This document shows positions 29,022 to 45,131 of a DNA stretch of 64,000 nucleotides, one piece after another. The position numbers and the translations under genes were made by a program. The notes under the pieces were generated by a model. That model was given only the letters and a program-made list of their open reading frames with translations, was not told the origin of the DNA and ran no database searches. Origin of the DNA: Streptomyces davaonensis JCM 4913 (GTDB lineage: Bacteria; Actinomycetota; Actinomycetes; Streptomycetales; Streptomycetaceae); the NCBI RefSeq assembly GCF_000349325.1, contig NC_020504.1:806001-870000 (forward strand), given 5' to 3'. Positions within the stretch are counted from its first letter, which is position 1. Every line of letters begins with the position of its first letter.

Positions 29022-31184
29022 TCACGGGAAGGACGTGACGGTGGACGGGACGGTGGAGCTGCCGGACGGGACCGTGGACGGGCCCGTGTCGTTGATGACG
29101 TGCTCGTAGTGGCCGTTGCCGCCGAGCGAGACCACCAGCAGGCTGTGGAACTTCACGCCCGGCTTCACCGGCGCCTTGAAGCCGTGGTCCTGGCGGATGC
29201 TCGGGTCGACGTTGTAGTAGCAGTAGCTGCCCAGGCCCCACCCCTCGTGCGTGGTGACCGAGTCGTCGACGCGATAGGCCGCGTACCCCTTGGTGGTGCC
29301 GTTCTGGATGGCGGCCTGGTTGGGCGCGTCGTAGGCCTTCTCGTTCTGGAAGAAGATCGTCCGGCCCCGCTCGCCGTACCACTCCACGTCGTACTTGTTG
29401 AAGTGCTCGACGAACAGTCCGGTCGCCAGCACGTCGTCGCCGTTGACGCGGACGCCGTAGTCGGCCCGGTTGGTCTCCCAGCCGACGCCGTCGCCGTGGT
29501 CGGCGCGCCACACCCAGGTGTGGTCGATGATCGTGTCGTCGCTGTTGACGACCATGCTGGTGGTGGCCTTGCCGGGGCCCGCGCCGCCGATCCGGATGTA
29601 CACGTCCTGGACGGTGGTCGGGTTGGCCGCGTGGTCGGCGCTCGCGCCCTGCGGGCCGACCTCCAGCAGGGTGCTGGAGTTGACCGTGCCGGCGTCGATC
29701 AGGAAGCCGGCCAGCCGGACGCCGTCGACATCGCCGACGCGCATCGCGGTGACGCCGTTGTCCGGGATGATCGTGGCGAGGCCCAGGCCGAGCACGATGG
29801 TGCCTGCCCGGTTGACCTGGATCGTCTGGTCGACGTGGTAGACGCCGGGGGTGAACAGCAGGTGCAGGCCCTGGCTCACGGCCTGGTTGATGGTGGCCGC
29901 GCTGGCGCCCGGCTTGACCACGTAGAAGTCGCTGAGCGGGATGGACTGGCCCTGCGGGGTGCCGCTCTCCCAGGTCGTGCCGCGCGCGTTGGTGCGCAGG
30001 GCGGGCGCGAACACCTTGTACTCGTTGCCGTCGAGGTACAGGAACGGCTTCTCGCGCGACACGGGCGTGTTCGCCAGGGTGGTGTACTTCGGCTCGGGGA
30101 AGCCGGTCGCCGGGGCGCCGACCGTGCCGGAGAAGACCTGGTTCCACACCGAGTTGGACCAGCCGCCGATGGAGCTGTCCCGGGTGTACCACTGCTGCTG
30201 CGAGTAGTTGCCGACCTGACCGTCGACCTTGGAGTCGGCGATGTAGCCGCCGCTGGCCCAACCGTAGCCGTCCGGCGAGAGGTTGAGGCCGCCCTTGACG
30301 TGCATGCGGCGGAAGGAGGAGGCCTGCGAGACGGCCCAGCGGTCGGTGCCGTTGACCGGGTTGACCGCGAGGTTCTCCGCCGAACGCCAGAAGTTCTGCG
30401 TGGCGTTGCCGTTGAACCAGCCCGCGTCGACGGTGATGTCACCGTTGATCAGGGTGTCGTCGGGCTTGAGTCCGAGCCCGGCGATCTGGGTGTAGAAGCC
30501 GATCTGGGCGTTGAGGCCGTTGTAGGTGCCGGGCTTGAAGAGGAAGGCGTGCCGGCCGCTGCCGAACTGGGCCGACTCCTGCTGCTCGAACACCTCGTCC
30601 AGCTTGGCCTGGATGCCGGGTGTGGAGGGGTCGATGACATGGACGTTCGGGCCGAGGTCACCACCGCCGGGGAGGGTGGGGCCGCCGTCCTGGGTGCCGT
30701 AGACCTTGAACTCCCAGAGGGAGTAGCCCCATCCGGTGGCGCGGGCGGTGCCGTACACCCGGACGTAGCGGGCCGTGCCGGAGACGTTCAGGGTCTCGGT
30801 GCCGCCGGTGCTGGTCGTGGTGGAGTAGGCCGTCGACCAGTCGGTGCCGTTCTGGGAGATCTCGATGCGGTAGGCCGACGCGTAGGCGGTCTCCCAGCGC
30901 AGTTCGACCTGACTGAGCGCGGCGGGGGCGCCGAGGTCGACGCGGATCCACTGCGGGTCGGAGAAGGCGCTGGACCAGCGGGTGCCGTTGTCGCCGTCGA
31001 CCGCTGCCGTGGCGGGCGTGCCGGCGTTCTCCGTACTGGAGGCGGTCACCGGCTTGCCCTGCGACAGCAGGGTCGGGGCAGCTTCCGCCCTGGTCGCGGG
31101 CGCGAGGGCGAGCAGGGCCGCGGCGAGCGCCAGGACGAGCGCGGCGATGAGGGAGCGTCTGTGCGGTGGGCCGACTGCGGGCAT
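29022..31184 (-). CDS. secreted discoidin (F5/8 type C) plus right-handed beta-helix protein
   Basis: 720 residues from the ATG at 31184 with GAGGAG 8 bp upstream. Signal peptide 1-34 (RRSLIAALVLALAAALLALAPATRAEA). A discoidin/CBM32-like domain covers about 38-165 (SQGKPVTASSTENAGTPATA, WIRVDLG, YVRVYGT). Residues about 185-700 form a pectate-lyase-like beta-helix with HAFLFKPGTYNGLNAQIGFYTQIAGLG and many N/D/G turns, similar in style to GH55/GH87 glucanases. I cannot assign a GH family. Probably a secreted polysaccharidase. Divergent from a small secreted protein; palindromic sequence at 31203-31232 may control it. Confidence 0.75.
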   Translation of the reverse strand: MPAVGPPHRRSLIAALVLALAAALLALAPATRAEAAPTLLSQGKPVTASSTENAGTPATAAVDGDNGTRWSSAFSDPQWIRVDLGAPAALSQVELRWETAYASAYRIEISQNGTDWSTAYSTTTSTGGTETLNVSGTARYVRVYGTARATGWGYSLWEFKVYGTQDGGPTLPGGGDLGPNVHVIDPSTPGIQAKLDEVFEQQESAQFGSGRHAFLFKPGTYNGLNAQIGFYTQIAGLGLKPDDTLINGDITVDAGWFNGNATQNFWRSAENLAVNPVNGTDRWAVSQASSFRRMHVKGGLNLSPDGYGWASGGYIADSKVDGQVGNYSQQQWYTRDSSIGGWSNSVWNQVFSGTVGAPATGFPEPKYTTLANTPVSREKPFLYLDGNEYKVFAPALRTNARGTTWESGTPQGQSIPLSDFYVVKPGASAATINQAVSQGLHLLFTPGVYHVDQTIQVNRAGTIVLGLGLATIIPDNGVTAMRVGDVDGVRLAGFLIDAGTVNSSTLLEVGPQGASADHAANPTTVQDVYIRIGGAGPGKATTSMVVNSDDTIIDHTWVWRADHGDGVGWETNRADYGVRVNGDDVLATGLFVEHFNKYDVEWYGERGRTIFFQNEKAYDAPNQAAIQNGTTKGYAAYRVDDSVTTHEGWGLGSYCYYNVDPSIRQDHGFKAPVKPGVKFHSLLVVSLGGNGHYEHVINDTGPSTVPSGSSTVPSTVTSFP

Positions 31185-31202
31185 GAAAGGGGCTCCTCGG
31201 AA

Positions 31203-31232
31203 CGAGAGTTGACGGAAATGAGCGCGCTCTCG
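31203..31232. promoter_or_regulatory. palindromic elements upstream of the beta-helix gene
   Basis: CGAGAG (31203-31208) and CTCTCG (31227-31232) form an inverted repeat that contains a perfect GAGCGCGCTC palindrome (31220-31229), about 20-45 bp upstream of the ATG at 31184. LacI-family regulators of Streptomyces glycosidase genes bind similar GAGCGCTC-like sites (CebR box is TGGGAGCGCTCCCA). Suggestive only. The rest of the 313-bp gap to 31498 shows AT-rich promoter-like sequence (about 31270-31305) but no gene. Confidence 0.4.
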
Positions 31233-31497
31233 GGAACCCTGCCGCCGGTCCTCCGGTCCGGTCAATAACTCCGTCACGACTTTTCTTTCACCTTTCATTA
31301 AGTAGGGAGCAGCCTTCGGCGCCCTCGCGATACGCGCCAATCGGCATCGAAGCGGGTACAGCCCGACCCGGGCGGCCCACACCTCGTACCGCCACTTCAC
31401 ACCGTCACCACGAATCCATCACGCCAGGATCACTTCCGGTCGATCCGGCTCCGGTGGTGCAGACGGGGCGGACGGCGCGCGCCTAGCCTCCCGGGCC

Positions 31498-32025
31498 ATG
31501 CGATCACCTCTGATGAGACGCCTCGGTCTCACCGCCGTCCTCGCTCTGCTGCTCGCCGCGTTCGGCCTCGCGCCCGGCGCGAGCGCGGCCGAACCCGCCC
31601 CGGCCACCCTGACGTTCAGCTCCGACAGCGCGACCACCACGCCCGGCGGCACGGTGAACCTGTCGATGACGCTCACCAACAACGCCACCTACGACATCTG
31701 GTTCGTCTACCAGACGATCGACCCGACGTGGCTCACCACGCAGCGACCTGACCTGAAGTACAGCTTCACGTCGTGCACTCTGGCCACCGCCGCGGGCGCC
31801 ACCCCGTGTTCCGGCACCGGCCCCGCCAACCTCGGCGCGAACTACGGCGCCACGATCCCGCCGGGCCAGAGCCGCACCGTCACGCTCACTCTCCAGATCG
31901 CCGCCGACTCCGGCTGCAACGGCAACATCGGCTTCTACTCGTACTACTACGCCGAGTTCAGCGACCGCACGAGCGTCAGCGGCGGTCCGGCCTACACCCC
32001 CGAGACGCGGGTCCTGTGCGCCTGA
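31498..32025 (+). CDS. small secreted protein of unknown function
   Basis: 175 residues. A clear signal peptide (MRRLGLTAVLALLLAAFGLAPGASA, cleavage about residue 30) is followed by an all-beta domain rich in Thr, Ser and Tyr (LTFSSDSATTTPGGTVNLSMTLTNN) that resembles an Ig-like/CARDB-type fold, with four cysteines positioned to form two disulfides (SCTLATAAGATPC, SGCNGNIG...VLC). No enzyme motif. The protein may be a structural or adhesion component. Followed by a terminator, so it is separate from the downstream polysaccharide cluster. Confidence 0.65.
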   Translation: MRSPLMRRLGLTAVLALLLAAFGLAPGASAAEPAPATLTFSSDSATTTPGGTVNLSMTLTNNATYDIWFVYQTIDPTWLTTQRPDLKYSFTSCTLATAAGATPCSGTGPANLGANYGATIPPGQSRTVTLTLQIAADSGCNGNIGFYSYYYAEFSDRTSVSGGPAYTPETRVLCA

Positions 32026-32197: not shown

Positions 32198-32257
32198 CGT
32201 CATGTTCCGCACGTAAGTGACCAGTTGGACACCTGCGCTTTTCCGTCATGTTTCGCA
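32198..32257. promoter_or_regulatory. direct repeats in the promoter region of the polysaccharide cluster
   Basis: CGTCATGTTCCGCA (32198-32211) and CGTCATGTTTCGCA (32244-32257) agree in 13 of 14 bases with start points 46 bp apart. They lie within the 384-bp gap before the CE18-like gene. Apart from a terminator and these repeats I see no gene or riboswitch there. They may be activator or repressor sites. Confidence 0.45.
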
Positions 32258-32409: not shown

Positions 32410-34527
32410 ATGAAGCGGATCTTATGCACCACCGCGCTGACGGTGGGCGCGCTCATCGCCGCGCTCGGCCTGCCGGCCGGGGCGGCCCAGGCCGACACCA
32501 GACCCCGTATCGATCTGCGGGTGCTGGTCGTCAGCGACGGCGGTCCGTCGACGGACGCGATAGCCGCCGAACTGGAGGTGGCGGGAACCCCGTACACCGA
32601 GATCGACCTCACCAGCGCCGACCGGCCGGTGATCGACGCGGAACTGCTCGCGGACACCGTCGACGGCCGGCCCCGGGCGAAGTTCCAGGCGGTCGTGCTG
32701 CCCAGCGACAACCCGTTCGCGGCCGGATCGGCCGAGATGGCCGCCCTGGTCGCCTATGAGCAGACGTACGACATCCCGCAGGTCGACGCCTACACCTACG
32801 CGCGTCCAGAGGCCGGGCTGAAGTACCCCGTCGAGGGCGGCTACGCGGGCAGCGCCGACGGGATGCGGGCGGAGGTCACGGCGGCCGGGCTCGCCGGACC
32901 CTTCGGATATCTCGACGGTGCGGTGCCCTTCGAGGACAACTCCCCCACCGTGGGCGAGAGTTACGCCTACCTGTCGACGCCGGTCGCCGGTGCCGACTTC
33001 ACTCCCTACGTCGAGGCGACGATCCCCGGGACGCAGCGGCGGGGCTCGCTGGTGGGCGAGTACCGGCACGACGGGCGCCGTGAGCTGGTCGTCACCTTCG
33101 TCTACAACCAGTACCAGCAGCAGTTCCGGCTGCTGGCCCGCGGAATCGTGGAGTGGCTGACGGGCGGGGTCCACCTGGGCGCGTCCCGGAACTACTTCGC
33201 CGTCCATGTGGACGACGTCTTCGCCGCCGACGACCGCTGGAACACCGAGCTGAACTGCACTCCCGGTGACGTCGACTGTCCCGAGGGGGCGGGTACGCCC
33301 GACCCGATCCGGATGACGCCCGAGGACGTGTCCTACGCCGCCGACTGGCAGGACAGCCACGGCTTCACGCTGGACCTGGCCTACAACGGCGCGGGCAGTG
33401 TCGAGCACCGCGAGGACCACGGCGGCGCCGACCCGCTCGCCGACCGGTTCCTCGCCGAGCGCGCCCGGTTCCGCTGGCTCAACCACACCTACACGCACGC
33501 CTTCCTCGGCTGCGAACAGGACACCACCGTCGTGCCGTGGCGCTGCGCCACCGAGGCCGACGGCAGCGTCCGCTGGGTGAGCCGCAACGCCATCGCCGAC
33601 GAGATCGCCACCAACCGGGTCTGGGGCCAGAACGCCGGACTGCCGCTGGAGAACGACGAGGTGGTCACCGGGGAGCACTCGGGCCTGCGGGTGCTGCCGC
33701 AGCAGAGCGACGACAACCCGAACCTGGCGCTCGCGCTCGACGACACCGACATCGCCTGGCTCGGCTCCGACAACTCCCGCGAGCCCGGACAGCGGCAGGT
33801 CGGCCCGGCGGTCACCGTGCCCCGCCACCCGATGAACGTCTTCTACAACGCGGGCCGGGCCGCCGAGCAGGTCGACGAGTACAACTGGATCTACACCGGC
33901 CGCGCCCAGGGCGGCAGCGGCATCTGCGAGGACAACCCGGCGACCTCCACCTGTCTGGACCAGCCGCTGGACACCGCGACCGGGTACGCCGAGTACATCG
34001 TGCCGCTGGAGACGCGGACGGCCCTCGGCCATGTCCTCTCGGGCGATCCGCGGCCGCACTACATCCACCAGTCGAACCTCGCCGAGGACCGCATCGCCTA
34101 TCCGGTGCTGAACGGCGTACTCGACGGCTACGCAGGGTTGTTCGCCACCGACACCCCCGTGGTGAATCTGCGCATGAAGGACATCGGCGTCGAGCTACAG
34201 CGCCGTACGGCCTGGCAGGCGGCGCTGGACGACGGACAGGTCACGGCCTACCTGATCGGTGACACGGTCACCGTCGAGGCCCCGGACGGGGTCGCGGTCA
34301 CCGCGACCATGCCCACCGGCACCACTCTGGCCGGCGCCGCGTTCGGCGAGCCCTACGCCGGTGAGCGGTCGGGGTGGACGCCGTCCGCCGGGACCCCGCT
34401 CACCCTGAGCCTGCCGTCGTCCGCGCCTCCCGCGCCCACGGCCTCGGGCACCGACTCGGCGACGGTCACGGACCCGGCGCCCGACACCTTCGTCCCGCGA
34501 GGGACGAGAGAGCCCTCGGCGAGCTGA
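32410..34527 (+). CDS. secreted Agd3-like polysaccharide deacetylase (CE18-like)
   Basis: 705 residues from the ATG at 32410 with GGGGAGGGG 10-18 bp upstream. Signal peptide about 1-29 (TTALTVGALIAALGLPAGAAQA). Residues about 33-255 (VLVVSDGGPSTDAIAAELEVAGTPY) resemble the N-terminal carbohydrate-binding region of Agd3. The deacetylase part has HVDDVF (266-271), where Asp would bind metal, and NHTYTH (358-363), the His-x3-His metal motif. A C-terminal beta domain follows. Agd3 removes N-acetyl groups from fungal galactosaminogalactan. Here it heads an operon with PelF-, Sph3- and GH114-like genes. Codon 5 is TTA (32422-32424), so translation should need the bldA tRNA. CE18 assignment is by motif and context. 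Confidence 0.75.
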   Translation: MKRILCTTALTVGALIAALGLPAGAAQADTRPRIDLRVLVVSDGGPSTDAIAAELEVAGTPYTEIDLTSADRPVIDAELLADTVDGRPRAKFQAVVLPSDNPFAAGSAEMAALVAYEQTYDIPQVDAYTYARPEAGLKYPVEGGYAGSADGMRAEVTAAGLAGPFGYLDGAVPFEDNSPTVGESYAYLSTPVAGADFTPYVEATIPGTQRRGSLVGEYRHDGRRELVVTFVYNQYQQQFRLLARGIVEWLTGGVHLGASRNYFAVHVDDVFAADDRWNTELNCTPGDVDCPEGAGTPDPIRMTPEDVSYAADWQDSHGFTLDLAYNGAGSVEHREDHGGADPLADRFLAERARFRWLNHTYTHAFLGCEQDTTVVPWRCATEADGSVRWVSRNAIADEIATNRVWGQNAGLPLENDEVVTGEHSGLRVLPQQSDDNPNLALALDDTDIAWLGSDNSREPGQRQVGPAVTVPRHPMNVFYNAGRAAEQVDEYNWIYTGRAQGGSGICEDNPATSTCLDQPLDTATGYAEYIVPLETRTALGHVLSGDPRPHYIHQSNLAEDRIAYPVLNGVLDGYAGLFATDTPVVNLRMKDIGVELQRRTAWQAALDDGQVTAYLIGDTVTVEAPDGVAVTATMPTGTTLAGAAFGEPYAGERSGWTPSAGTPLTLSLPSSAPPAPTASGTDSATVTDPAPDTFVPRGTREPSAS

Positions 34528-34613
34528 ACGGCGCACCGCACCGAGGTCCCGGCCGCCCACCGCGCCGCCGGGACCGGAACGACCACCCCACACCTCGGCC
34601 GTGGAGCCCATGG

Positions 34614-36104
34614 ATGCACGTTCACCACGGCGCGCGACGCTCGGACGCGACGCGTGTCACCCTGCTCACCGAAGGCACCTACCCGCACAGCCACGGCGGC
34701 GTGAGCGTCTGGTGCGACCAGCTCGTGCGCGGCATGCCGGACCTGGAGTTCGACGTCGTCGCCGTCACCGGCACCGGCCATGAACCCGTCGTATGGGAGC
34801 TGCCCTCCCAGGTGTCCCGCGTCTGGTCCGTGCCGATGTGGGGCGCGCCCCCGGAGGGCGAGCCGCCCCGCGGGCGGGCGCGGCGGCGGCTCGCCCACTC
34901 CTACGAGCGGTTTCTCGCCGCGCTGCTCGACCCCTGCGCCGAGGACGGTTTCGCCCCCGCGCTGTACACGATGGCGCGGGCCGCGGCGGACGGCACCCTC
35001 AGCCCTTTTCTCCGCGGTGACCGGGCGGTCTCGGTGCTGGCCTCGGTGTGGAACCGCCCCGGTCTCGTGGTGCGGGAGGCCCGGCCCTCGCTGCACGACG
35101 CGCTGACCGCCACCGGACTGCTGGAGCACGCCCTGCGCCCACTGACCGCTCCAGTGCCCAGCGACGGCGTGACCCACGCGGTGAGCGGCGGAGTCGCGGT
35201 CCTCCCCGGACTCGCGGCGCTGGAACGTCACGGCACTCCGCTGCTGCTGACCGAGCACGGCGTCTACTTGCGTGAGCGCTATCTCGGCTACCGCACCGCT
35301 CCCTATCGCTGGCCGGTGAAGGCCGTGGTGCTGGGCTTCTTCCGGCTGCTGGCGGAGGAGACCTACCGCAGGGCCGCGCTGATCACGCCGGGCAACCGCT
35401 ACAACCGGCTGTGGGAGGAGCAGGGGGGCGCGGCACCGGAGTCGATCCGGACCGTCTACAACGGCGTGGATCCGGCGGCGTTCCCGCCCGCCGGGCCCGA
35501 ACCGGAGGGGCTGACCCTCAGCTGGGCGGGCCGGGTCGACCCGATCAAGGACCTGGAGACCCTCATCCGCGCGTTCTCCCTCGTACGCGAACAACTGCCG
35601 GACGTCCGACTGCGGTTGTTCGGCGGGACTCCTCGCGGCGGTGAGGCCTACCGGGAACGCTGTGAGGCGCTGGCCGCCGAGTTGGGGCACGCGGACGCGG
35701 TGACCTTCGAGGGCCGGGTCGACGACATCAAGGACGCCTACGCGGCGGGGTCCGTCGTGATGCTCTCCAGCATCAGCGAGGGCTTCCCGTTCACGCTGAT
35801 CGAGGCGATGTCCTGCGGCCGGGCCACCGTGTCCACGGACGTCGGCGGTGTCCGCGAGGCCGTCGGCGACACGGGGCTCGTGGTGCCGCCGAGGGATCCC
35901 GCCGCCATGGCGGCCGCCGCGCTGGAACTGCTGGCCGCGCCCAAACGGCGGGCGGCGATGGGCGAGGCGGCCCGGCTGCGAGTGATCGAGCAGTTCACCC
36001 TGCGGCGGACCATCGACACCTTCCGCGCCATCTATCAGGACCTTCCCTACATGGAACGGGTGTTGACACCGGAGTCGGAGCCGGAGAGGAGCCTCGCCCT
36101 ATGA
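34614..36104 (+). CDS. PelF-like GT4 glycosyltransferase
   Basis: 496 residues from the ATG at 34614 with GGAG 7 bp upstream. The start VTLLTEGTYPHSHGGVSVWCDQLV, the middle LLLTEHGVYLRERYL and VYNGVDP, and LSWAGRVDPIKDLETLIRAF closely follow PelF, the cytoplasmic GT4 enzyme that polymerises the galactosamine-rich Pel polysaccharide from UDP-GalNAc/GlcNAc. The GT4 E-x7-E motif is Glu389 and Glu397 (EGFPFTLIE). It overlaps the next gene by ATGA, pointing to tight coupling with the membrane protein. It probably forms the polymer of the cluster. The sugar donor is inferred. Confidence 0.82.
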   Translation: MHVHHGARRSDATRVTLLTEGTYPHSHGGVSVWCDQLVRGMPDLEFDVVAVTGTGHEPVVWELPSQVSRVWSVPMWGAPPEGEPPRGRARRRLAHSYERFLAALLDPCAEDGFAPALYTMARAAADGTLSPFLRGDRAVSVLASVWNRPGLVVREARPSLHDALTATGLLEHALRPLTAPVPSDGVTHAVSGGVAVLPGLAALERHGTPLLLTEHGVYLRERYLGYRTAPYRWPVKAVVLGFFRLLAEETYRRAALITPGNRYNRLWEEQGGAAPESIRTVYNGVDPAAFPPAGPEPEGLTLSWAGRVDPIKDLETLIRAFSLVREQLPDVRLRLFGGTPRGGEAYRERCEALAAELGHADAVTFEGRVDDIKDAYAAGSVVMLSSISEGFPFTLIEAMSCGRATVSTDVGGVREAVGDTGLVVPPRDPAAMAAAALELLAAPKRRAAMGEAARLRVIEQFTLRRTIDTFRAIYQDLPYMERVLTPESEPERSLAL

Positions 36105-37456
36105 GCGGCCCCATGGCTCTCGAACCCGGCGGCACCGGGCAGGACACGCTCGCCCTCCGCCTCGCCGACGACTCCACCCTGGCGCTGCGGCTCCCGGACC
36201 GAGGCACGCACCGCGCCGAGGTGGACGGGCTGGCCGCCGAACTGGCCGACCGGATCGGCCCCGCCGTCCATCCCTACGAGGTGGCCGCGCTGCTGGAGTC
36301 GGAGGGCCTGACCGCCGCGGTGGTCAAGGAACGGTACGGGCACCGCGACATCTTCACGCTCGCCTCCGCCCTGTACGAGCGGGTCCCCCGGTCCTTTCCG
36401 GAGCCCACCCCCACGGCCGACCCCTGGCGGCCCGACCATGTGCGCTGTCTGCTGCGCGGGGTGCTCTTCGCGCTGCCCGGCCTCGCCTACCTCCTCGCGG
36501 CACCGCTGTGGCACGCCTCGGAGCACGCCACGGCACTGATCCTGGCGGGGCTCGTCTCCTGGGCGTGGGGGCAGGGGCTGGGCCACCGGGCCCACCTGCG
36601 CCGGGCGGTGGGGCGCCGCGAGGCGGGCCGTACGCTGCTCCTCGGCGCTCCGGTGGGCGCGGCCCTGGCTACAGCCTGCGCCGCGGTGCCCGCGCAGGGC
36701 GGACCGGTCACCCTGCTCGCGGCGGCGCAGTCGGTCTATCTGGCCGCGGCGGGCGTGCTGTTGGTGCTCGGCGCGGAGTGGCTGTTGCTGGCCGCGCTGA
36801 GTCCGCTGATCGCCGGTTCAGCCGTACTGCCGTGGTGGGAGCCCGGCCAACTGCTGCGCGCCGGGCTGCCCTTGCTCGCACTGCTCGCCACTCTCGCCGT
36901 CACCGCCCACGCCCTGCGCTCCGCCGTCACCGCCCCGGCCGCCACCGGCGCTCCCCCGCCACCGGTCCACCGGTCGCTGCCGTACGGCCTGTTCGGGCTC
37001 GCGGCCGCGATCCTGGTGCTGCTGGAGGGCCGCCGGCATCCGTACGCGGTGATCGCGCTGACCGTGTCCATGGGTCCCGCCGAGTGGCTGCTGTACCGCT
37101 ACCGGGGACTGTCCGTCGGCGCCCTGCGCGCAGCCGCCACTCCCCTCGGATTCCTGTGGCGCTCGGCCGGAGTCCTCGGCCTGTGCCTGCTCGCCTATCT
37201 CCTGCTCCTGCTGCCCGCGGCGCTGCTCACCGACAGCGATCCGGTGGCGCTGCTGCCGCTCGCGGCCACCTTGTGGACGGCGCTGCTGCTCCAGGCGTTC
37301 GGTACGGCCTGGCCGCCGGCGGCGATCTGCCTGACCGCCGCGGCCTGCGCCGCCGCCGTGCCCCCGGACCACCTCTGCCTGCCCTACGGGGCGGCGGCCC
37401 TGTGTCTCGCGCTCTGTGTGCTGCGGACGCTGGGCCGACCCGCTCCCCATGTCTGA
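36101..37456 (+). CDS. polytopic membrane protein, PelG-like by position and topology
   Basis: 451 residues starting in the ATGA overlap with the PelF-like gene. Residues 1-110 are soluble and include VHPYEVAALLESEGLTAAVV then ERYGHRDIFTLASALYERVPR, a conserved-looking domain. From about 117 on there are eleven to twelve hydrophobic helices. PelG, which always goes with PelF, is a 12-helix transporter of about 450 residues, so length and context match, though I see no sequence motif that proves homology. It may export the polymer across the plasma membrane. No other export gene is in the cluster. Confidence 0.6.
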   Translation: MSGPMALEPGGTGQDTLALRLADDSTLALRLPDRGTHRAEVDGLAAELADRIGPAVHPYEVAALLESEGLTAAVVKERYGHRDIFTLASALYERVPRSFPEPTPTADPWRPDHVRCLLRGVLFALPGLAYLLAAPLWHASEHATALILAGLVSWAWGQGLGHRAHLRRAVGRREAGRTLLLGAPVGAALATACAAVPAQGGPVTLLAAAQSVYLAAAGVLLVLGAEWLLLAALSPLIAGSAVLPWWEPGQLLRAGLPLLALLATLAVTAHALRSAVTAPAATGAPPPPVHRSLPYGLFGLAAAILVLLEGRRHPYAVIALTVSMGPAEWLLYRYRGLSVGALRAAATPLGFLWRSAGVLGLCLLAYLLLLLPAALLTDSDPVALLPLAATLWTALLLQAFGTAWPPAAICLTAAACAAAVPPDHLCLPYGAAALCLALCVLRTLGRPAPHV

Positions 37457-37489
37457 GTCCCGTTTCAACCCTCCGGAAGGACCCCCGAG

Positions 37490-38491
37490 TTGACCTCCGC
37501 ACCGCTCGCCGCCGTCACCGGAGCCGAGGGTTTCATCGGCTCCCACCTCACCGAGACGCTCGTCGCCTCCGGGCACCGGGTGAGGGCGATGGCCCAGTAC
37601 AACTCCTTCTCCTCCTACGGCTGGCTGGAGACCCTGGCACCGGACGTCCTGGAGCACGTCGAGATCGTCCTCGGCGACGTCCGGGACCCCGGCTCGGTCC
37701 GCGGCCTGATGGAAGGCGCCGACTGCGTCTACCACCTGGCCGCCCTCATCGCGATCCCGTACTCCTACCAGGCGCCGCACAGCTACGTGGACACCAACGT
37801 CACCGGCACCCTCAACGTGCTGGAGGCCGCGCGCGCCCTCGGCACGCCCCGCCTGGTGCACACCTCCACCAGCGAGACCTACGGCACCGCGCAGACCGTG
37901 CCGATCACCGAGGAGCACCCCATCAACACCCAGTCCCCGTACGCCGCTTCGAAGGCGGGCGGCGACCGGCTGGCCGACAGCTACCACGCCAGCTTCGGCA
38001 CTCCCGTGGTGACGCTGCGGCCGTTCAACACCTTCGGTCCGCGCCAGTCGATGCGGGCCGTCATCCCCACGGTGATCGGCCAGGTCGCCGCCGGGGAACG
38101 GACGATCACCCTCGGCGATCTGCGTCCCACCCGGGACTTCACCTACGTCAAGGACACCGCGCGGGCGTTCCTCGCGGTGGGCACCGCGCCCGCCGAGCAG
38201 GTGGTGGGCCGCACCCTCAACGCCGGTACCGGCGGCGAGATCTCGGTCGGCGACCTGGTCGCGCTGATCGGCAAGGTGATGGACACCGCCCTCGACGTGC
38301 GGGAGGACACCGAGCGGCTGCGGCCCGCCGCCTCCGAGGTGATGCGGCTGGTCGCGGACGCCTCCCGGCTGACCGCGGCCACCGGCTGGCAGCCCGCGCA
38401 CACGCTGGAGGAAGGGCTCGCCCACACCGTGGAGTTCTTCCGCGACCCGGCCAATCTGGCCCGCTACAAGACCGGCATCTACAACATCTGA
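37490..38491 (+). CDS. NAD-dependent nucleotide-sugar 4,6-dehydratase/epimerase (LegB-like extended SDR)
   Basis: 333 residues from a TTG at 37490 with GGAAGG 11 bp upstream. Cofactor motif GAEGFIG (11-17); catalytic Tyr151 and Lys155 (SPYAASK) with TSTSETYGTA before them. The segments RAMAQYNSFSSYGWLE, PFNTFGPRQSMRAVIPT and PTRDFTYVKDTARAF are close to LegB-type UDP/GDP-GlcNAc 4,6-dehydratases and to UDP-glucose/GlcNAc 4-epimerases. It supplies an activated sugar for the PelF-like enzyme or a side group. Whether it dehydrates or epimerises cannot be settled by eye. Confidence 0.85.
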   Translation: MTSAPLAAVTGAEGFIGSHLTETLVASGHRVRAMAQYNSFSSYGWLETLAPDVLEHVEIVLGDVRDPGSVRGLMEGADCVYHLAALIAIPYSYQAPHSYVDTNVTGTLNVLEAARALGTPRLVHTSTSETYGTAQTVPITEEHPINTQSPYAASKAGGDRLADSYHASFGTPVVTLRPFNTFGPRQSMRAVIPTVIGQVAAGERTITLGDLRPTRDFTYVKDTARAFLAVGTAPAEQVVGRTLNAGTGGEISVGDLVALIGKVMDTALDVREDTERLRPAASEVMRLVADASRLTAATGWQPAHTLEEGLAHTVEFFRDPANLARYKTGIYNI

Positions 38492-38524
38492 ACCCCCCAC
38501 CCGTTTCATGAAGGAGCAGTCCCC

Positions 38525-39238
38525 ATGCACGCAGTGATCCTGGCGGGCGGCAAGGGCGTCCGGTTGCGGCCCTACACCACGGCCCTGCCCAAGCCGCTCG
38601 TCCCCATCGGCGATCAGCACGCCATCCTGGAGATCGTGCTGCGCCAGCTCTCGGCGTCCGGCTTCACCCACTGCACCCTCGCCATCGGCCATCTCGGGGA
38701 GATCATCCGCGCCTACGTCGGCGACGGCTCGCAGTGGGGCATGAACGTCTCCTACGCCACCGAGGACAGCCCCCTCGGCACGATGGGCCCGCTGCTGGCG
38801 TTGCGCGACCAACTGCCGGAGACCTTCCTGGTCATGAACGGCGACATCCTCACCGATCTCGACTACGCCGACGTACTGCACCGGCACCGGGAGTCGGGCG
38901 CGCCGCTGACCATCGCCACCTACGCGCGCAAGGTGCACATCGACTTCGGGGTGCTGACCACCGACGCCAGCCGGGTGGTGGCTTTCACCGAGAAGCCGAG
39001 CATGGACTACCGGGTCTCGATGGGCGTCTACGGCCTGTCCCGCGCCACCCTCGACTCCTACACCCCCGGCCTGCCGCTCGGCTTCGACGAGCTGGTCCTG
39101 GATCTGCTGGCGGACCAACGCCCGCCGTACGCCTACGAGTTCGACGGGTACTGGCTGGACATCGGGCGGCCCGACGACTACGACCGGGCGAACGCGGAGT
39201 TCACCAGCCGCAAGTCGCTTCTGCTCAAGGGAGCCTGA
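38525..39238 (+). CDS. sugar-1-phosphate nucleotidylyltransferase
   Basis: 237 residues. The N-terminal MHAVILAGGKGVRLRPYTTALPKPLVPIGD contains the pyrophosphorylase signature GGKGVRLRP with the catalytic Arg and PKPL lysine; NGDILTD carries the metal aspartate. The length corresponds to the short LegF/RfbF-like type without a C-terminal beta-helix. It forms an NDP-sugar from NTP and a hexose-1-phosphate. Located between two SDR genes and separated by only 33 and 7 bp, it belongs to the same operon. Confidence 0.88.
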   Translation: MHAVILAGGKGVRLRPYTTALPKPLVPIGDQHAILEIVLRQLSASGFTHCTLAIGHLGEIIRAYVGDGSQWGMNVSYATEDSPLGTMGPLLALRDQLPETFLVMNGDILTDLDYADVLHRHRESGAPLTIATYARKVHIDFGVLTTDASRVVAFTEKPSMDYRVSMGVYGLSRATLDSYTPGLPLGFDELVLDLLADQRPPYAYEFDGYWLDIGRPDDYDRANAEFTSRKSLLLKGA

Positions 39239-39245
39239 GCACCGT

Positions 39246-40139
39246 ATGCGCATTCTCGTCCTGGGCCGCACCGGCTATCTGGGCGGCCATGTCGTCGAGC
39301 GACTGCGGGCCCTGCCGGGCACGCGGGTGCTCGGCGGCGGGCGCTCCGCCGACGCCGACCATCGCATCGACCTCGCCTCGGCCGACCCCGAACAGCTGGC
39401 GAAGACCCTGGCGTCGGCGGCACCCGACGCCGTGGTCAACTGCGCCGGAGCCGTCGCGGGTGACGCCGTCACGCTCGCCGAGGTCAACACCCGTGGCCCC
39501 GCCGTGCTGTGCGCGGCGCTGCGGGCGGTGGCACCGGCGGCGCGCCTGGTCCATCTGGGCTCGGCCGCCGAGTACGGGCCCGGCGCGCCCGGCGTTCCGG
39601 TCACCGAGTCGGCGCCGACCAGCCCGGTCGGCCCGTACGGCGCGACCAAGCTCGCGGGCACGGCCTGCGTGATGGCCTCCGGCCTCGACGCGGTGGTCCT
39701 GCGCGTGGGCAACCCGGTAGGGCCGGGCGCACCGGCCGCCGGGCTGCCGGGCCGGGTCGCCGCACTGCTCCGCGAGGCGGGACCCGGCCCCGAGGCGGTG
39801 CTGCGGCTCGGCGATCTGTCGGCCTACCGCGACTTCGTCGACGTACGGGATCTGGCGCGCGCGGTGGAGCTGGCTGTGCGGGCGAGCGGGCCGCTGCCGC
39901 CCGTGCTGAACATCGGCGGCGGGGCGGCGGTGCGGGTGCGCGAACTGGTGCACTCGCTCGCCGAGTTGGCGGGGTTCCGAGGCCGGATCGAGGAGTCCGC
40001 ACCCAGCTCGGCGCGCTCGGCTCAGGTGTCGTGGCAGTGCTCGGACATCACCGCCGCGCACGACGCCCTCGGCTGGCTGCCCGCCCACACCCTGGAGGAG
40101 TCTCTGCACGCTCTGTGGGAGGGCGGCCGAGCACCGTGA
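39246..40139 (+). CDS. NAD-dependent epimerase/reductase (extended SDR)
   Basis: 297 residues, 7 bp after the nucleotidylyltransferase gene. GRTGYLGG (7-14) binds NAD(P); Tyr131 and Lys135 (GPYGATK) are catalytic. The sequence is closest in style to dTDP-4-dehydrorhamnose reductase and short epimerases (ALRAVAPAARLVHLGSAAEYG). As the third nucleotide-sugar gene it may reduce or epimerise the product of the LegB-like enzyme. Its stop codon overlaps the next start (GTGA). Confidence 0.85.
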   Translation: MRILVLGRTGYLGGHVVERLRALPGTRVLGGGRSADADHRIDLASADPEQLAKTLASAAPDAVVNCAGAVAGDAVTLAEVNTRGPAVLCAALRAVAPAARLVHLGSAAEYGPGAPGVPVTESAPTSPVGPYGATKLAGTACVMASGLDAVVLRVGNPVGPGAPAAGLPGRVAALLREAGPGPEAVLRLGDLSAYRDFVDVRDLARAVELAVRASGPLPPVLNIGGGAAVRVRELVHSLAELAGFRGRIEESAPSSARSAQVSWQCSDITAAHDALGWLPAHTLEESLHALWEGGRAP

Positions 40140-40795
40140 GTCTGCTCATTCCGCTGTACGTCCATCCGGCCGAGGACCCGGGCGCCTGGCACCGGCTGAT
40201 CTCGGGCGCCGCCCGCACCTACGGGGTGGTCCTGAACCCGGCGAGCGGACCGGGCCGGGAGCCGGATCCGGCGTTCACGGCGGCGGCTTCGGCGCTGCGT
40301 ACAGCCGGGGCCCGGCTGCTCGGATACGCGGACACGGCCTACGGGCGCCGTGATCCGGCGGAGGTCGTCGCGGACGTGCGCCGGCACCGGGAGTGGTACG
40401 CGGCCGACGGCTGCTTCCTCGACCGGGTGCCCGCCGAACGGGCCGGGCTCCCCGGGTGCCGGAAGATGGTCCGCTCCGTCCGGCGGGCCGGCGTGGACAC
40501 CGTCGTACTCAATCCGGGCGTCCATCCGGCCCCCGGATACACCCGGCTCGCCGATCTGACGGTCACCTTCGAGGGCCACTGGTCGACCTACGTCTCGGCG
40601 TTCAGCCGCCCGGCGTGGACCGCCCGGCATCCGGCCGAGCGGTTCTGTCATCTGGTGTACGGGGTGCCGGAGGCGCTGGTGCCGCTCGCGGTGCGCACGG
40701 CGCACGATCGGGGTGCCGCGGTGTCGGGGCCGGTGACGGGCGAACAGCCCAATCCCTGGGCCGGGTTGACGCCCGCGCTGTCGGGGGTGGAGTGA
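40136..40795 (+). CDS. spherulin-4-like protein (Sph3/GH135-like), cytoplasmic form
   Basis: 219 residues, GTG start at 40136 overlapping the previous stop by 4 bp. The pattern LLIPLYVHPAEDPGAWHRLIS, VVLNPASGPG, LLGYADTAYGRRDPAEV, GCFLDRVPAE, TVVLNPGVHPAPGY and VTFEGHWSTY matches the spherulation-specific family 4 (GH135), whose fungal member Sph3 cleaves galactosaminogalactan. The catalytic Asp of FLDxxP is kept (Asp96) and so is Glu146. But the residue after Asp96 is Arg, where an acidic residue is usual. There is no signal peptide or anchor. It may trim or protect against premature polymer inside the cell, or have lost activity. Confidence 0.75.
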   Translation: MSLLIPLYVHPAEDPGAWHRLISGAARTYGVVLNPASGPGREPDPAFTAAASALRTAGARLLGYADTAYGRRDPAEVVADVRRHREWYAADGCFLDRVPAERAGLPGCRKMVRSVRRAGVDTVVLNPGVHPAPGYTRLADLTVTFEGHWSTYVSAFSRPAWTARHPAERFCHLVYGVPEALVPLAVRTAHDRGAAVSGPVTGEQPNPWAGLTPALSGVE

Positions 40796-41577
40796 TGAGG
40801 AAGGCCGCGGCCCTGACGGCGGCGCTTCTCACCCTGGCGGCGCTGGCCGGTTGCTCGACCGACGACGACAGCCGCGGGCCACGCTGGCGGCCGCGCCCCG
40901 GACTGGCCTGGCAGTGGCAGCTCGACGGCCGCGTGGACCCCTCCGTCGACGTACCGGTCTACGACATCGACGGCTTCGAGAACTCCGCCGCGGACGTGGC
41001 CCGGCTGCACCGCGACGGACGCAAGGTGATCTGTTACGTCAACGTCGGCGCCTGGGAGGACTTCCGCCCCGACCAGGACGCCTTCCCCGACTCGGTGCTG
41101 GGCCGCCCCAACGGCTGGAAGGGCGAGCGCTGGCTGGACATCCGGCGGCTGTCCGTGCTGCGGCCGATCATGGAGCGCCGGTTCGACATGTGCCGCGACA
41201 AGGGCTTCGACGCGATCGAGCCCGATCTGCTGGAGGGCTACGGCAACGACACCGGGTTCCCGCTCACCGCGCGCGACCAGCTCCGGTACAACCGCATGAT
41301 CGCGGACCTGGCCCATCGGCGCGGCCTGTCGGTGGGGCTGAAGAACGACCTGCCCCAGATTCCGCAGCTGGTGCACCACTTCGACTTCGCGGTCAACGAG
41401 GAGTGCGCCCAGTTCGACGAGTGCGGGGAGCTGAAGCCGTTCATCACCGCGGGCAAGGCGGTCTTCCATGTGGAGTATGCCGAGCCGACCGCCGCCTTCT
41501 GCCCGGACTCCCGACGCCTGAAGCTGTCGTCGATGCGGAAGAAGTTGGAGCTGGGGGTATGGCGGGCGCCGTGCTGA
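40795..41577 (+). CDS. GH114 endo-alpha-1,4-galactosaminidase-like lipoprotein (Ega3-like)
   Basis: 260 residues, starting in a TGATG overlap. Signal peptide with lipobox LAGC (Cys20), so the enzyme is lipid-anchored on the outer face. The whole domain follows the GH114 pattern: LAWQWQLDG, VPVYDIDGFE, KVICYVNVGAWEDFRPD, WLDIRRLSVL, GFDAIEPDLLEGYGND, GLKND, AVNEECAQFDEC. The likely catalytic acids are Asp144 and Glu202/203. GH114 enzymes cleave alpha-1,4-linked galactosamine polymers such as the deacetylated fungal galactosaminogalactan. In the cluster it would shorten or release the secreted polymer. Last gene of the operon. Confidence 0.85.
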   Translation: MRKAAALTAALLTLAALAGCSTDDDSRGPRWRPRPGLAWQWQLDGRVDPSVDVPVYDIDGFENSAADVARLHRDGRKVICYVNVGAWEDFRPDQDAFPDSVLGRPNGWKGERWLDIRRLSVLRPIMERRFDMCRDKGFDAIEPDLLEGYGNDTGFPLTARDQLRYNRMIADLAHRRGLSVGLKNDLPQIPQLVHHFDFAVNEECAQFDECGELKPFITAGKAVFHVEYAEPTAAFCPDSRRLKLSSMRKKLELGVWRAPC

Positions 41578-41605: not shown

Positions 41606-42112
41606 ATGACCGAGGTGGAAATACAGGTGGTGCAGTTGCTCGTGTCGCCCGGGCACCGGCTCGCGGGGCGGCCCGGCGACGGACTGCCGCCCGAGGGCGA
41701 AGGGGAGCTCGTGGCCCGGGCCCAGGTGCGTGAGGGCCTCGGTCTGCTCGGGGACCGGTACTTCGGGAAGCCGGCCCATCGCGATGCCTCGCTGACCCTG
41801 ATGTCCGAGGAGAATCTGCCCGTCGGCATCGACCCGGCGGTGGATCTGCGCGGCACCCGCCGCAACGTCCTGCTGCGCGGCGTCGACATCGACGCCCTCG
41901 TCGGCTCGGCCGTCAGCCTGGACTGCGGATTCGGCCCCGTCACCTTCGCCCTGAACCGTCCGGCCCGGCCGTGCGCGTGGATGGACGTGACCATCGGGCC
42001 CGGCGCCCAGCGCGCGCTGCGCGACAAGGGCGGGGTGCGATGCACCCCGTTGTCCGACGGGGTGCTCGCGGTGGGCCCGGCGAAGTTCCGGGTGCTTCCC
42101 CCGGAACATTGA
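41606..42112 (+). CDS. MOSC-domain protein
   Basis: 168 residues. MOSC features are EIQVVQLLVSPGHRLAGRPGD, GLLGDRYFGKPAHRDASLTLMSEENL, DLRGTRRNVLLRGVDIDALVG and FALNRPARPCAWMD, where the conserved Cys would carry persulfide sulfur. MOSC proteins transfer sulfur or act on molybdenum-cofactor-related substrates (YiiM/MARC-like). The last bases, including the TGA (42110-42112), belong to the inverted-repeat end of the TnpB element, so the native C terminus may have been altered by its insertion. Confidence 0.85.
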   Translation: MTEVEIQVVQLLVSPGHRLAGRPGDGLPPEGEGELVARAQVREGLGLLGDRYFGKPAHRDASLTLMSEENLPVGIDPAVDLRGTRRNVLLRGVDIDALVGSAVSLDCGFGPVTFALNRPARPCAWMDVTIGPGAQRALRDKGGVRCTPLSDGVLAVGPAKFRVLPPEH

Positions 42113-42161: not shown

Positions 42162-43385
42162 TCAGGCTGCCGCCGGGGACGGTGTCCCAGGTGGTCTTAT
42201 GCCCTCGACACCAGCCGGGAGGAGACCAGCCCGGTGGAGCATGACGCGGGCGGAGTTCTTGTCCCGTGGTTTCACGGTTCCGCACGCGGTGCAGGTGTAG
42301 GTGCGCATCCCCAGCGGCAGGGCGTGCTTGGCTCTCGCTCCGCACTGTCCGCAGTCCATCGTGGTGTACGCGGGATGCACCAAGTGCACGATCCGGCCGT
42401 GCTTGCGGCCCATGTGGATCAGGGCCTGCTTGGTGGCGCCGATGGCGGCGTCCGCGGCCTTGTTGGCCATCGTGGTCCTGGCCAGGAACTTCGGCTTGAA
42501 GTCCTCCACGGCCAGCGCGTCGTGGTCGGCGACGATCCGCTTCGCCCACTTCCTCCCCGTGTCCTGACGTTGACGGGCGACCTTCTTGTGCGCCTTCGCC
42601 CGCAGCCTCTTCGCCTCTCGGTAGCCCTTCGAAGCAGCGCAGCCCTTCTGCGGTTTGCGTCGGGCCATCATCCGGTCATAACGGCCCAGCTTCGCCTTGG
42701 ACTTCTTCCCGTGGGCGGGGTGAGGCAGATCGTGCGGGCCGGAGGTGGTGGTGGCGACCTGGGTGACGCCCCAGTCGATCCCGATCACCGCCCCCGTGTC
42801 CGGGAGCGGTTCCACGGTGGCCGGAACGACGAAGCTCGCGTACCAGTGGCCCAGAGCATCCTGGTGGACGCGGACGCTGGACGCCTCGGCGGGCAACGGA
42901 CGCGACCACACCACACGCACGACGATGCCGCCCGCCAGGTACAGCCGCCCGTCCTTCAGACGGAAGCCGTTCTTCGTGTAGTTGAGGCTGGGCAACGCCT
43001 CACGCCGCTTCTTGTACCTGGGCATTTGGGCCCTGCGGGTCTGCGGCAGCCGGTCGGTGATGTCCTTGAGGGCCTTGGCCCGGGAGCGGCCGAAGTCGCG
43101 GATGATCTGCTGCTGCGGCACCGACGAGCCCGCACGCAGCCACGCAGTACGCGCCCTCGCCTCGGTGAGCATCTTGTCCAGCTGAGCCGGACCACACGTC
43201 CGCCGGTCTTCCGGATGGGCCTGGTTGTGCAGGTGGAGGGCCTTGGACTTGGCCACGCACTCGTTCCAGACCCAGCGACACCGCCCCCACTCCTGCCTCA
43301 GCGCCGTACTGGCGGTGGCCGACAGGCGCAGCCGGTACGTGTACCGGGCATGCCCCACCCCATCGCTCACCGCCCGTGCCGTCAT
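42162..43385 (-). CDS. tnpB: RNA-guided endonuclease TnpB
   Basis: 407 residues from the ATG at 43385; the frame is open further upstream but without support. The N-terminal OrfB helix-turn-helix-like region contains RYTYRLRLSATASTALRQEW. The RuvC-like triad is complete: Asp204 (GIDWGVTQ), Glu294 (LAVEDF) and Asp375 (KPRDKNSAR). The zinc ribbon has Cys345, Cys348, Cys365 and Cys368 (CGQCG, CTACG). TnpB cleaves DNA next to a short TAM under guidance of the omega-RNA and so preserves its element. All catalytic residues are kept, so it is probably active. Isolated, without tnpA. Confidence 0.92.
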   Translation of the reverse strand: MTARAVSDGVGHARYTYRLRLSATASTALRQEWGRCRWVWNECVAKSKALHLHNQAHPEDRRTCGPAQLDKMLTEARARTAWLRAGSSVPQQQIIRDFGRSRAKALKDITDRLPQTRRAQMPRYKKRREALPSLNYTKNGFRLKDGRLYLAGGIVVRVVWSRPLPAEASSVRVHQDALGHWYASFVVPATVEPLPDTGAVIGIDWGVTQVATTTSGPHDLPHPAHGKKSKAKLGRYDRMMARRKPQKGCAASKGYREAKRLRAKAHKKVARQRQDTGRKWAKRIVADHDALAVEDFKPKFLARTTMANKAADAAIGATKQALIHMGRKHGRIVHLVHPAYTTMDCGQCGARAKHALPLGMRTYTCTACGTVKPRDKNSARVMLHRAGLLPAGVEGIRPPGTPSPAAA

Positions 43386-43640
43386 ACCCGCCCCCCTTGC
43401 CCCACGTCCCGGCCGGTTTTCCCACCCCGCCACGGGAGCGTACGTACGAGATCCGCACGCCCGCACCCTTCCTTCCGCGATCACCCCGAAAGGCGAACAC
43501 GGGCACGCGCGTTCGCCTTTCCCGGCTCCGCCGGACCGGGCGTGACGGGCGCTCCGCGCCCGGGCTCCCGGATGCGGCGACGCTCCGCGTCGCTGTCACG
43601 GGATGCAGTTCCTCCCCACAAGAATCAGGTGAACAGCCGG

Positions 43641-45131
<1,491 letters not shown>

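Follow-up and report, generated by a model that had tools for sequence, protein, structure and literature searches.

Cationic galactosamine polymers serve as biofilm glues of fungi and bacteria. In Aspergillus, the galactosaminogalactan (GAG) cluster has five genes (including those named uge3 and gtb3), among them a 4-epimerase, a deacetylase, a glycosyltransferase with a membrane part, and hydrolases of families GH135 and GH114. We describe here an eight-gene operon, A–H, in the genome of Streptomyces davaonensis JCM 4913 (GCF_000349325.1), found within a window of 64,000 nt (NC_020504.1 positions 806,001–870,000, forward strand) whose numbering is used for its genes throughout. The operon shares the deacetylase, the glycosyltransferase and both hydrolases with the fungal cluster, but the glycosyltransferase and its membrane part are two genes, the epimerase is missing, and three nucleotide-sugar genes (D, E and F) stand in the middle.

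The closest bacterial description is that of Bamford et al. (2020; PMC7229062), whose tree finds agd3 in or near predicted carbohydrate-active enzyme operons in 30 of 35 bacterial species. According to the passages of that paper concerned with these operons, every one identified encodes a glycosyltransferase and a multi-spanning membrane protein, GH114 is a highly consistent member, and spherulin-4 genes occur in some Actinobacteria; galactosamine in Streptomyces walls is cited there as well. The present locus is alike in its agd3 homologue, cytoplasmic glycosyltransferase, multi-spanning membrane protein, GH114 and spherulin-4 genes, and because such operons had been described the gene combination is not new, contrary to an earlier sequence-only reading of this DNA, whose author was aware of no Streptomyces pathway of this composition. 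The new part is the middle cassette, D-E-F. Section 13 of the same paper makes no mention of a 4,6-dehydratase/reductase cassette or of two cluster types per genome, and no description of the cassette variant was found in searches of an open-access library, a scope outside which Fig. 8c and the supplements of that paper fall.

The Gram-positive pelDEADAFG operon likewise has a MOP-like membrane protein, PelG, and, as set out in the relevant part of Whitfield 2020 (PMC7112168), a PelF-type GT4 enzyme and a separate secreted deacetylase. Here, however, none of the eight proteins matched a pelD- or pelE-type family in Pfam or NCBIfam, C has no PelG sequence match, and the deacetylase is Agd3-like rather than of the CE26 PelADA type (PMC13254593). 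The LegB and GMD-RMD pathways resemble the cassette itself in pairing a nucleotidylyltransferase with a T-S-E 4,6-dehydratase and a 4-ketoreductase-like short-chain dehydrogenase/reductase (SDR). In the present case that cassette is embedded in a Pel/GAG-like synthase operon, which is without the aminotransferase that legionaminic acid synthesis uses. We place the operon among the systems that Bamford et al. outlined in 2020, and its most plausible reading is that of a chemical variant which brings its own supply of deoxysugar.

Results

Open reading frame analysis of the window places the operon at 32410–41577, with eight packed genes all on the + strand and intergenic spacings, from A to H, of 86, −4, 33, 33, 7, −4 and −1 bp. 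The sequence-only reading was right about the packing, the overlapping genes and the gaps of 33, 33 and 7 bp but left out the 86 bp between A and B. Synteny across Streptomyces, which it had raised as a check, is kept: A to G are contiguous in 64/64 named Streptomyces loci whose sequence runs 8 kb or more beyond A, and H directly follows G in 51 of these 64, the named loci being the best 80 of 471 related stretches and therefore overweighting close relatives. An arrangement so regular is no accident, and the operon is both real and conserved.

Gene D (37490–38491, +; 333 aa, TTG start) is a predicted LegB-like nucleotide-sugar 4,6-dehydratase by NCBIfam and motifs. Its best family is LegB (TIGR04180) at 456.5 bits, under the curated cut-off of 475, and the next-best is dTDP-glucose 4,6-dehydratase (171.5 bits), with GalE at 139.3 bits. 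The protein has TSE at residues 127–129 and Y151xxxK155, and the TSTSETYG and YAASK motifs are identical in 83/83 rows (some genomes being represented twice). A T-S-E triad is also shared by UDP-xylose synthases. Among the SDR fingerprints described in the part of PMC8987622 devoted to them, GalE has [ST]xnYx3K and GMD has [ST]SExnYx3K, the 4-epimerase being without the acid/base pair; judged by its motifs, D carries the fingerprint of GMD-type (GDP-mannose-type) 4,6-dehydratases. The substrate stated for Campylobacter LegB, in the section of PMC7439481 that names it, is GDP-N-acetylglucosamine.

Gene E (38525–39238, +; 237 aa) encodes a sugar-1-phosphate nucleotidylyltransferase resembling GDP-mannose pyrophosphorylases, with a Pfam NTP_transferase match at 1.2e-39 and a mannose-1-phosphate guanyltransferase as its best match in the PDB (1.8e-32). 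Gene F (39246–40139, +; 297 aa) is an SDR and presumed 4-ketoreductase whose best PDB matches are 6x3b and 2pk3 and whose best solved relative is a GDP-6-deoxy-D-mannose reductase; its motif GSAAEYG, without the dehydratase acid/base pair, occurs in 78/78 rows kept. Since activation, 4,6-dehydration and 4-keto reduction together yield a 6-deoxy sugar, D-E-F look like a 6-deoxysugar pathway and not like the 4-epimerase of the fungal cluster. In a locus from another actinobacterial family (L198), a single open frame carries E fused to F, next to a D that scores 458.3 bits for LegB. A third version of the cluster (L254, 5181–16265) carries A (CBM87 above cut-off), B, C, E, F and a divergent GH114; instead of a LegB-like D it has a UDP-glucose/GDP-mannose-type dehydrogenase and a further SDR.

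Clusters with the cassette are termed type 1 here and cassette-free clusters type 2. The S. davaonensis genome holds both, the second being an A-B-C-G-H cluster at 7.03 Mb (L033, C1 7022000–7040000). Matches to A were found in 72/150 Streptomyces genomes. At the 82 A places used (of 91 rows), E lay within 9 kb in 30 and not in 52, the latter including some contig ends or lone A genes and the former a few A fragments; 12 Streptomyces genomes had both kinds of place. All 18 loci classed as type 2 were without D, E and F alike. Outside Streptomyces the A family is rare, with matches in 26/394 genomes of the class, 5 of them from other genera.

The GH114 hydrolase co-varies with this division. Gene H (40795–41577, +; 260 aa) encodes a lipoprotein (lipobox LAGC by inspection) that scores 286.7 bits against Pfam GH114, with a cut-off of 27, and matches the sequence of fungal Ega3 (6oj1) at E 1.8e-55, as the sequence-only reading had proposed. 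The predicted nucleophile D144 and acid/base E202 are invariant in 12/12 members. Residue 145, directly after the nucleophile, is Leu in H and Asn in Ega3. Across 191 loci of at least 5 kb, which held 103 distinct GH114 proteins scoring at least 200 bits, the 64 distinct proteins from loci with both B and D comprised 63 with Leu and a single one with Val, loci with B and without D had Asn in 23/23, and loci with neither had Asn in 11, Asp in 2, Glu in 2 and Gln in 1 (n = 16), so that Leu or Val occurred in 0/39 proteins from loci without D. A comparison of 59 type-1 rows (window included) with 13 type-2 rows gave only two fixed GH114 differences from type 1 to type 2, N83S and L145N, with 110 columns conserved alike, and Ega3 matches the cassette-free state at both positions. 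In the B tree, the D-positive locus L198 does not fall with the Streptomyces D-positive (type 1) loci. A GH114 tree built without both columns, and given without support values, places the two GH114 genes of L198 (Leu and Val) away from those of type 1; the residue-145 pattern is therefore not simply the state of a single clade, although independent cases are few. This link between cassette and residue 145 is the most useful outcome of the analysis, as a testable rule.

Gene B (34614–36104, +; 496 aa) is a PelF-like GT4 glycosyltransferase and presumed cytoplasmic polymerase, scoring 170.9 bits against a cut-off of 100 for the NCBIfam PelF equivalog and matching Pfam DUF3492 at 1.1e-60, which bears out its earlier assignment. 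Gene C (36101–37456, +; 451 aa) is a membrane protein whose structure model, of moderate quality, has an N-terminal part of ~110 residues followed by the 12 helices that had been predicted, in a MOP-type fold. PelG is likewise a MOP-like membrane protein, and a PelG-like role for C is suggested by the modeled flippase-like fold but not by its sequence. No Pfam or NCBIfam family matched C at E ≤ 0.1, and no Pfam family was matched by more than 2 of its 38 relatives.

Gene G (40136–40795, +; 219 aa, GTG start) belongs to the GH135/Spherulin-4 family and is a presumed intracellular endo-hydrolase. It scores 117 bits against Pfam Spherulin4 (cut-off 30.2) and matches the sequence of Sph3 (5c5g) at E 3.3e-16, so that its description as Sph3-like was sound. 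The putative catalytic residues D96 and E146 are invariant in 17/17 aligned members, and the Glu that adjoins the catalytic Asp in Sph3 is Arg or Gln in G. Inspection of the N-terminus found no signal peptide in any of the same 17 members, and G therefore probably acts in the cytoplasm.

Gene A (32410–34527, +; 705 aa) is a predicted secreted polysaccharide de-N-acetylase. Its open frame begins at 32248, and the start at 32410 is the one common to relatives, with M1, K2 and R3 invariant in 45/45 alignment rows and a signal peptide at the N-terminus by inspection. Codon 5 is TTA (window 32422–32424), a rare leucine codon; TTA is present in 31/82 type-1 A rows, and falls within the first 10 codons in 17. 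The TTA codon in Streptomyces is linked to bldA control.

A is probably a distant Agd3/CE18-type deacetylase. The window protein alone reaches 13.3 bits (E 0.042) against Pfam Agd3_CE, under the cut-off of 27.6 bits, and the CE18 assignment therefore leans on relatives, motifs and Foldseek; it is by this route that the Agd3-like label of the sequence-only reading survives. Agd3_CE is matched at E ≤ 1 by all 45 members of one set of relatives (window protein included; best 6.9e-7) and HSNSD-CE by 24 of them (best 6.3e-5), and PF25115 is precomputed in 9/120 listed relatives. No PDB sequence match was obtained at E ≤ 1, either with the single sequence or with a profile, and the top Foldseek match of the A model is Agd3 6nwz (E 4.7e-6; TM-score 0.20, mean pLDDT 43.8). 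The putative catalytic motifs D268-D269, H359xxxH363, R472 and H553 are kept in 17/17 operon members of a further set (A3); they follow passages of PMC7229062, with R472 and H553 assigned via order and spacing. Two A-like proteins outside operons (L048 5423–7504 and L049 4495–6615), near which no other operon gene was found, are without D269 and the two His residues of the HxxxH motif and appear to be catalytically dead relatives. No A was found in the type-1 clusters L252 and L253, and A is a 174-residue frame in L255, so some strains may do without deacetylation by A.

Upstream of A lies a gene for a 175-aa secreted protein (31498–32025, +), a possible accessory that is directly upstream of A in 69/73 named loci with 2 kb or more of preceding sequence and for which a Pfam search gave no family above cut-off. 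Downstream, a gene with a weak MOSC match (41606–42112) separates the operon from an IS605 OrfB/TnpB-type gene (42162–43484, −). Nearby, a GH10 xylanase carrying CBM2 is encoded at 43641–45101 (−) and a large protein with an F5/8 type C domain at 29022–31400 (−).

Discussion

Judging from the predicted gene content, we have little doubt that the locus is an operon for a synthase-dependent exopolysaccharide akin to Pel and galactosaminogalactan. We infer that its product is a partly de-N-acetylated aminosugar polymer containing a 6-deoxy sugar. E would activate a sugar-1-phosphate (GDP- or UDP-linked), D would turn the nucleotide sugar into its 4-keto-6-deoxy form, and F would reduce C4 to give a nucleoside diphosphate (NDP)-6-deoxyhexose, most likely an N-acetylated 6-deoxyhexosamine. 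B would polymerise this precursor in the cytoplasm, alone or with UDP-N-acetylgalactosamine (UDP-GalNAc), and C would move the chain across the membrane. Secreted A would then strip N-acetyl groups to leave a cationic polymer, lipid-anchored H would cleave it at the cell surface, and G may act within the cell, to release the chain, control its length or clear it. An ordinary GalNAc/galactosamine polymer would come from the cassette-free paralogous cluster. As a whole, a Pel/GAG-like synthase operon making a 6-deoxysugar-containing cationic polymer is the best explanation, to which we give a probability of about 0.55; that the polymer itself incorporates a 6-deoxy sugar seems to us an even bet.

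Several observations weigh against this explanation. D falls short of the LegB cut-off (456.5 against 475 bits). In the divergent locus L254, whose GH114 is too distant to compare at residue 145, E and F occur with no LegB-like D; since a dehydrogenase stands in its place, these two enzymes may be used for more than one sugar. At V9 and P127 of G it is type 1 that resembles fungal Sph3 and the cassette-free type that departs from it. The other shared genes also have fixed differences between the types (A 3, B 13, C 6, G 5), so that some divergence is expected anyway. Finally, the GH114 correlation comes from few lineages, namely Streptomyces type 1 and the two GH114 genes of one other locus, and a sugar contact of residue 145 is inferred from its position adjoining the nucleophile.

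The polymer might instead be plain, partly deacetylated alpha-1,4-GalNAc as in Pel and GAG, with the cassette supplying UDP-GalNAc and D acting as a 4-epimerase. In its favor, the characterised GH114, GH135, PelF and Agd3 relatives work on GalNAc/galactosamine polymers (in the portions of PMC7229062, PMC12054363 and PMC7112168 that report them), a UDP-glucose-4-epimerase is placed in a fungal GAG cluster by the corresponding passage of PMC11356417, and PDB entries named 4-epimerases are among the matches of D, which also counts against the deoxysugar interpretation. Yet the 4,6-dehydratase acid/base pair (T-S-E) is present in 83/83 rows of D, the LegB score of D is 456 bits where its GalE score is 139, epimerisation needs neither a nucleotidylyltransferase nor a reductase-like SDR, and D, E and F are all missing from the 18 type-2 loci; we regard a plain GalNAc polymer as rather unlikely. 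The sequence-only reading had inferred a pathway for a cationic alpha-1,4 galactosamine-rich polymer with a secreted deacetylase and a lipid-anchored hydrolase, and this outline is partly supported. The plain alpha-1,4-galactosamine part is probably wrong in part, because D-E-F resemble a 6-deoxysugar cassette rather than a UDP-GalNAc supply and because the amino acid next to the GH114 nucleophile varies together with them.

Alternatively, the sugar made by E, D and F could end up in a side branch or terminal cap, or in a different surface glycan, the three genes being only co-regulated here, given that B alone could polymerise UDP-GalNAc, as it presumably does in the cassette-free clusters. 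No second glycosyltransferase is encoded in the operon, although one could lie elsewhere in the genome, where no search for it was made. In 64/64 loci D-E-F lie within the operon, with synthase genes on one side and hydrolase genes on the other, which speaks against this separate use, and the GH114 difference beside the nucleophile that goes with the cassette suggests incorporation of the sugar into the chain that this hydrolase cleaves. We consider a separate use improbable. Least credible, and in our view very improbable, is a degradative locus attacking fungal GAG or the Pel of other bacteria: two hydrolases and a deacetylase are present, and a secreted Streptomyces griseus endo-galactosaminidase is cited in the Agd3 paper (PMC7229062, in the passages at hand), but a PelF-type synthase, a flippase-like protein and nucleotide-sugar enzymes share the packed array, G is without a signal peptide, and no uptake transporter or sugar-catabolism family is among the Pfam and NCBIfam matches of the eight proteins.

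The preferred interpretation, a 6-deoxysugar-containing cationic polymer, can be extended, tentatively and at somewhat less than even odds, to the whole group. Pel/GAG-type operons might come in interchangeable chemical versions, of which the present one would yield a cassette-made 6-deoxyhexosamine chain (of fucosamine or quinovosamine type, for example), the change in GH114 from Asn to a hydrophobic residue would fit a C6 methyl group, a Streptomyces strain could make two cationic polymers, and the dehydrogenase of L254 would mark a third version. The presence of two paralogous clusters in one genome makes a clean test possible. If some Streptomyces do make a deoxysugar version, the split of these operons into two types would be explained and the residue after the GH114 nucleophile would become a sequence marker predicting the substrate of biofilm-cutting enzymes, and one of the best-studied bacterial genera would have gained a new surface polymer.

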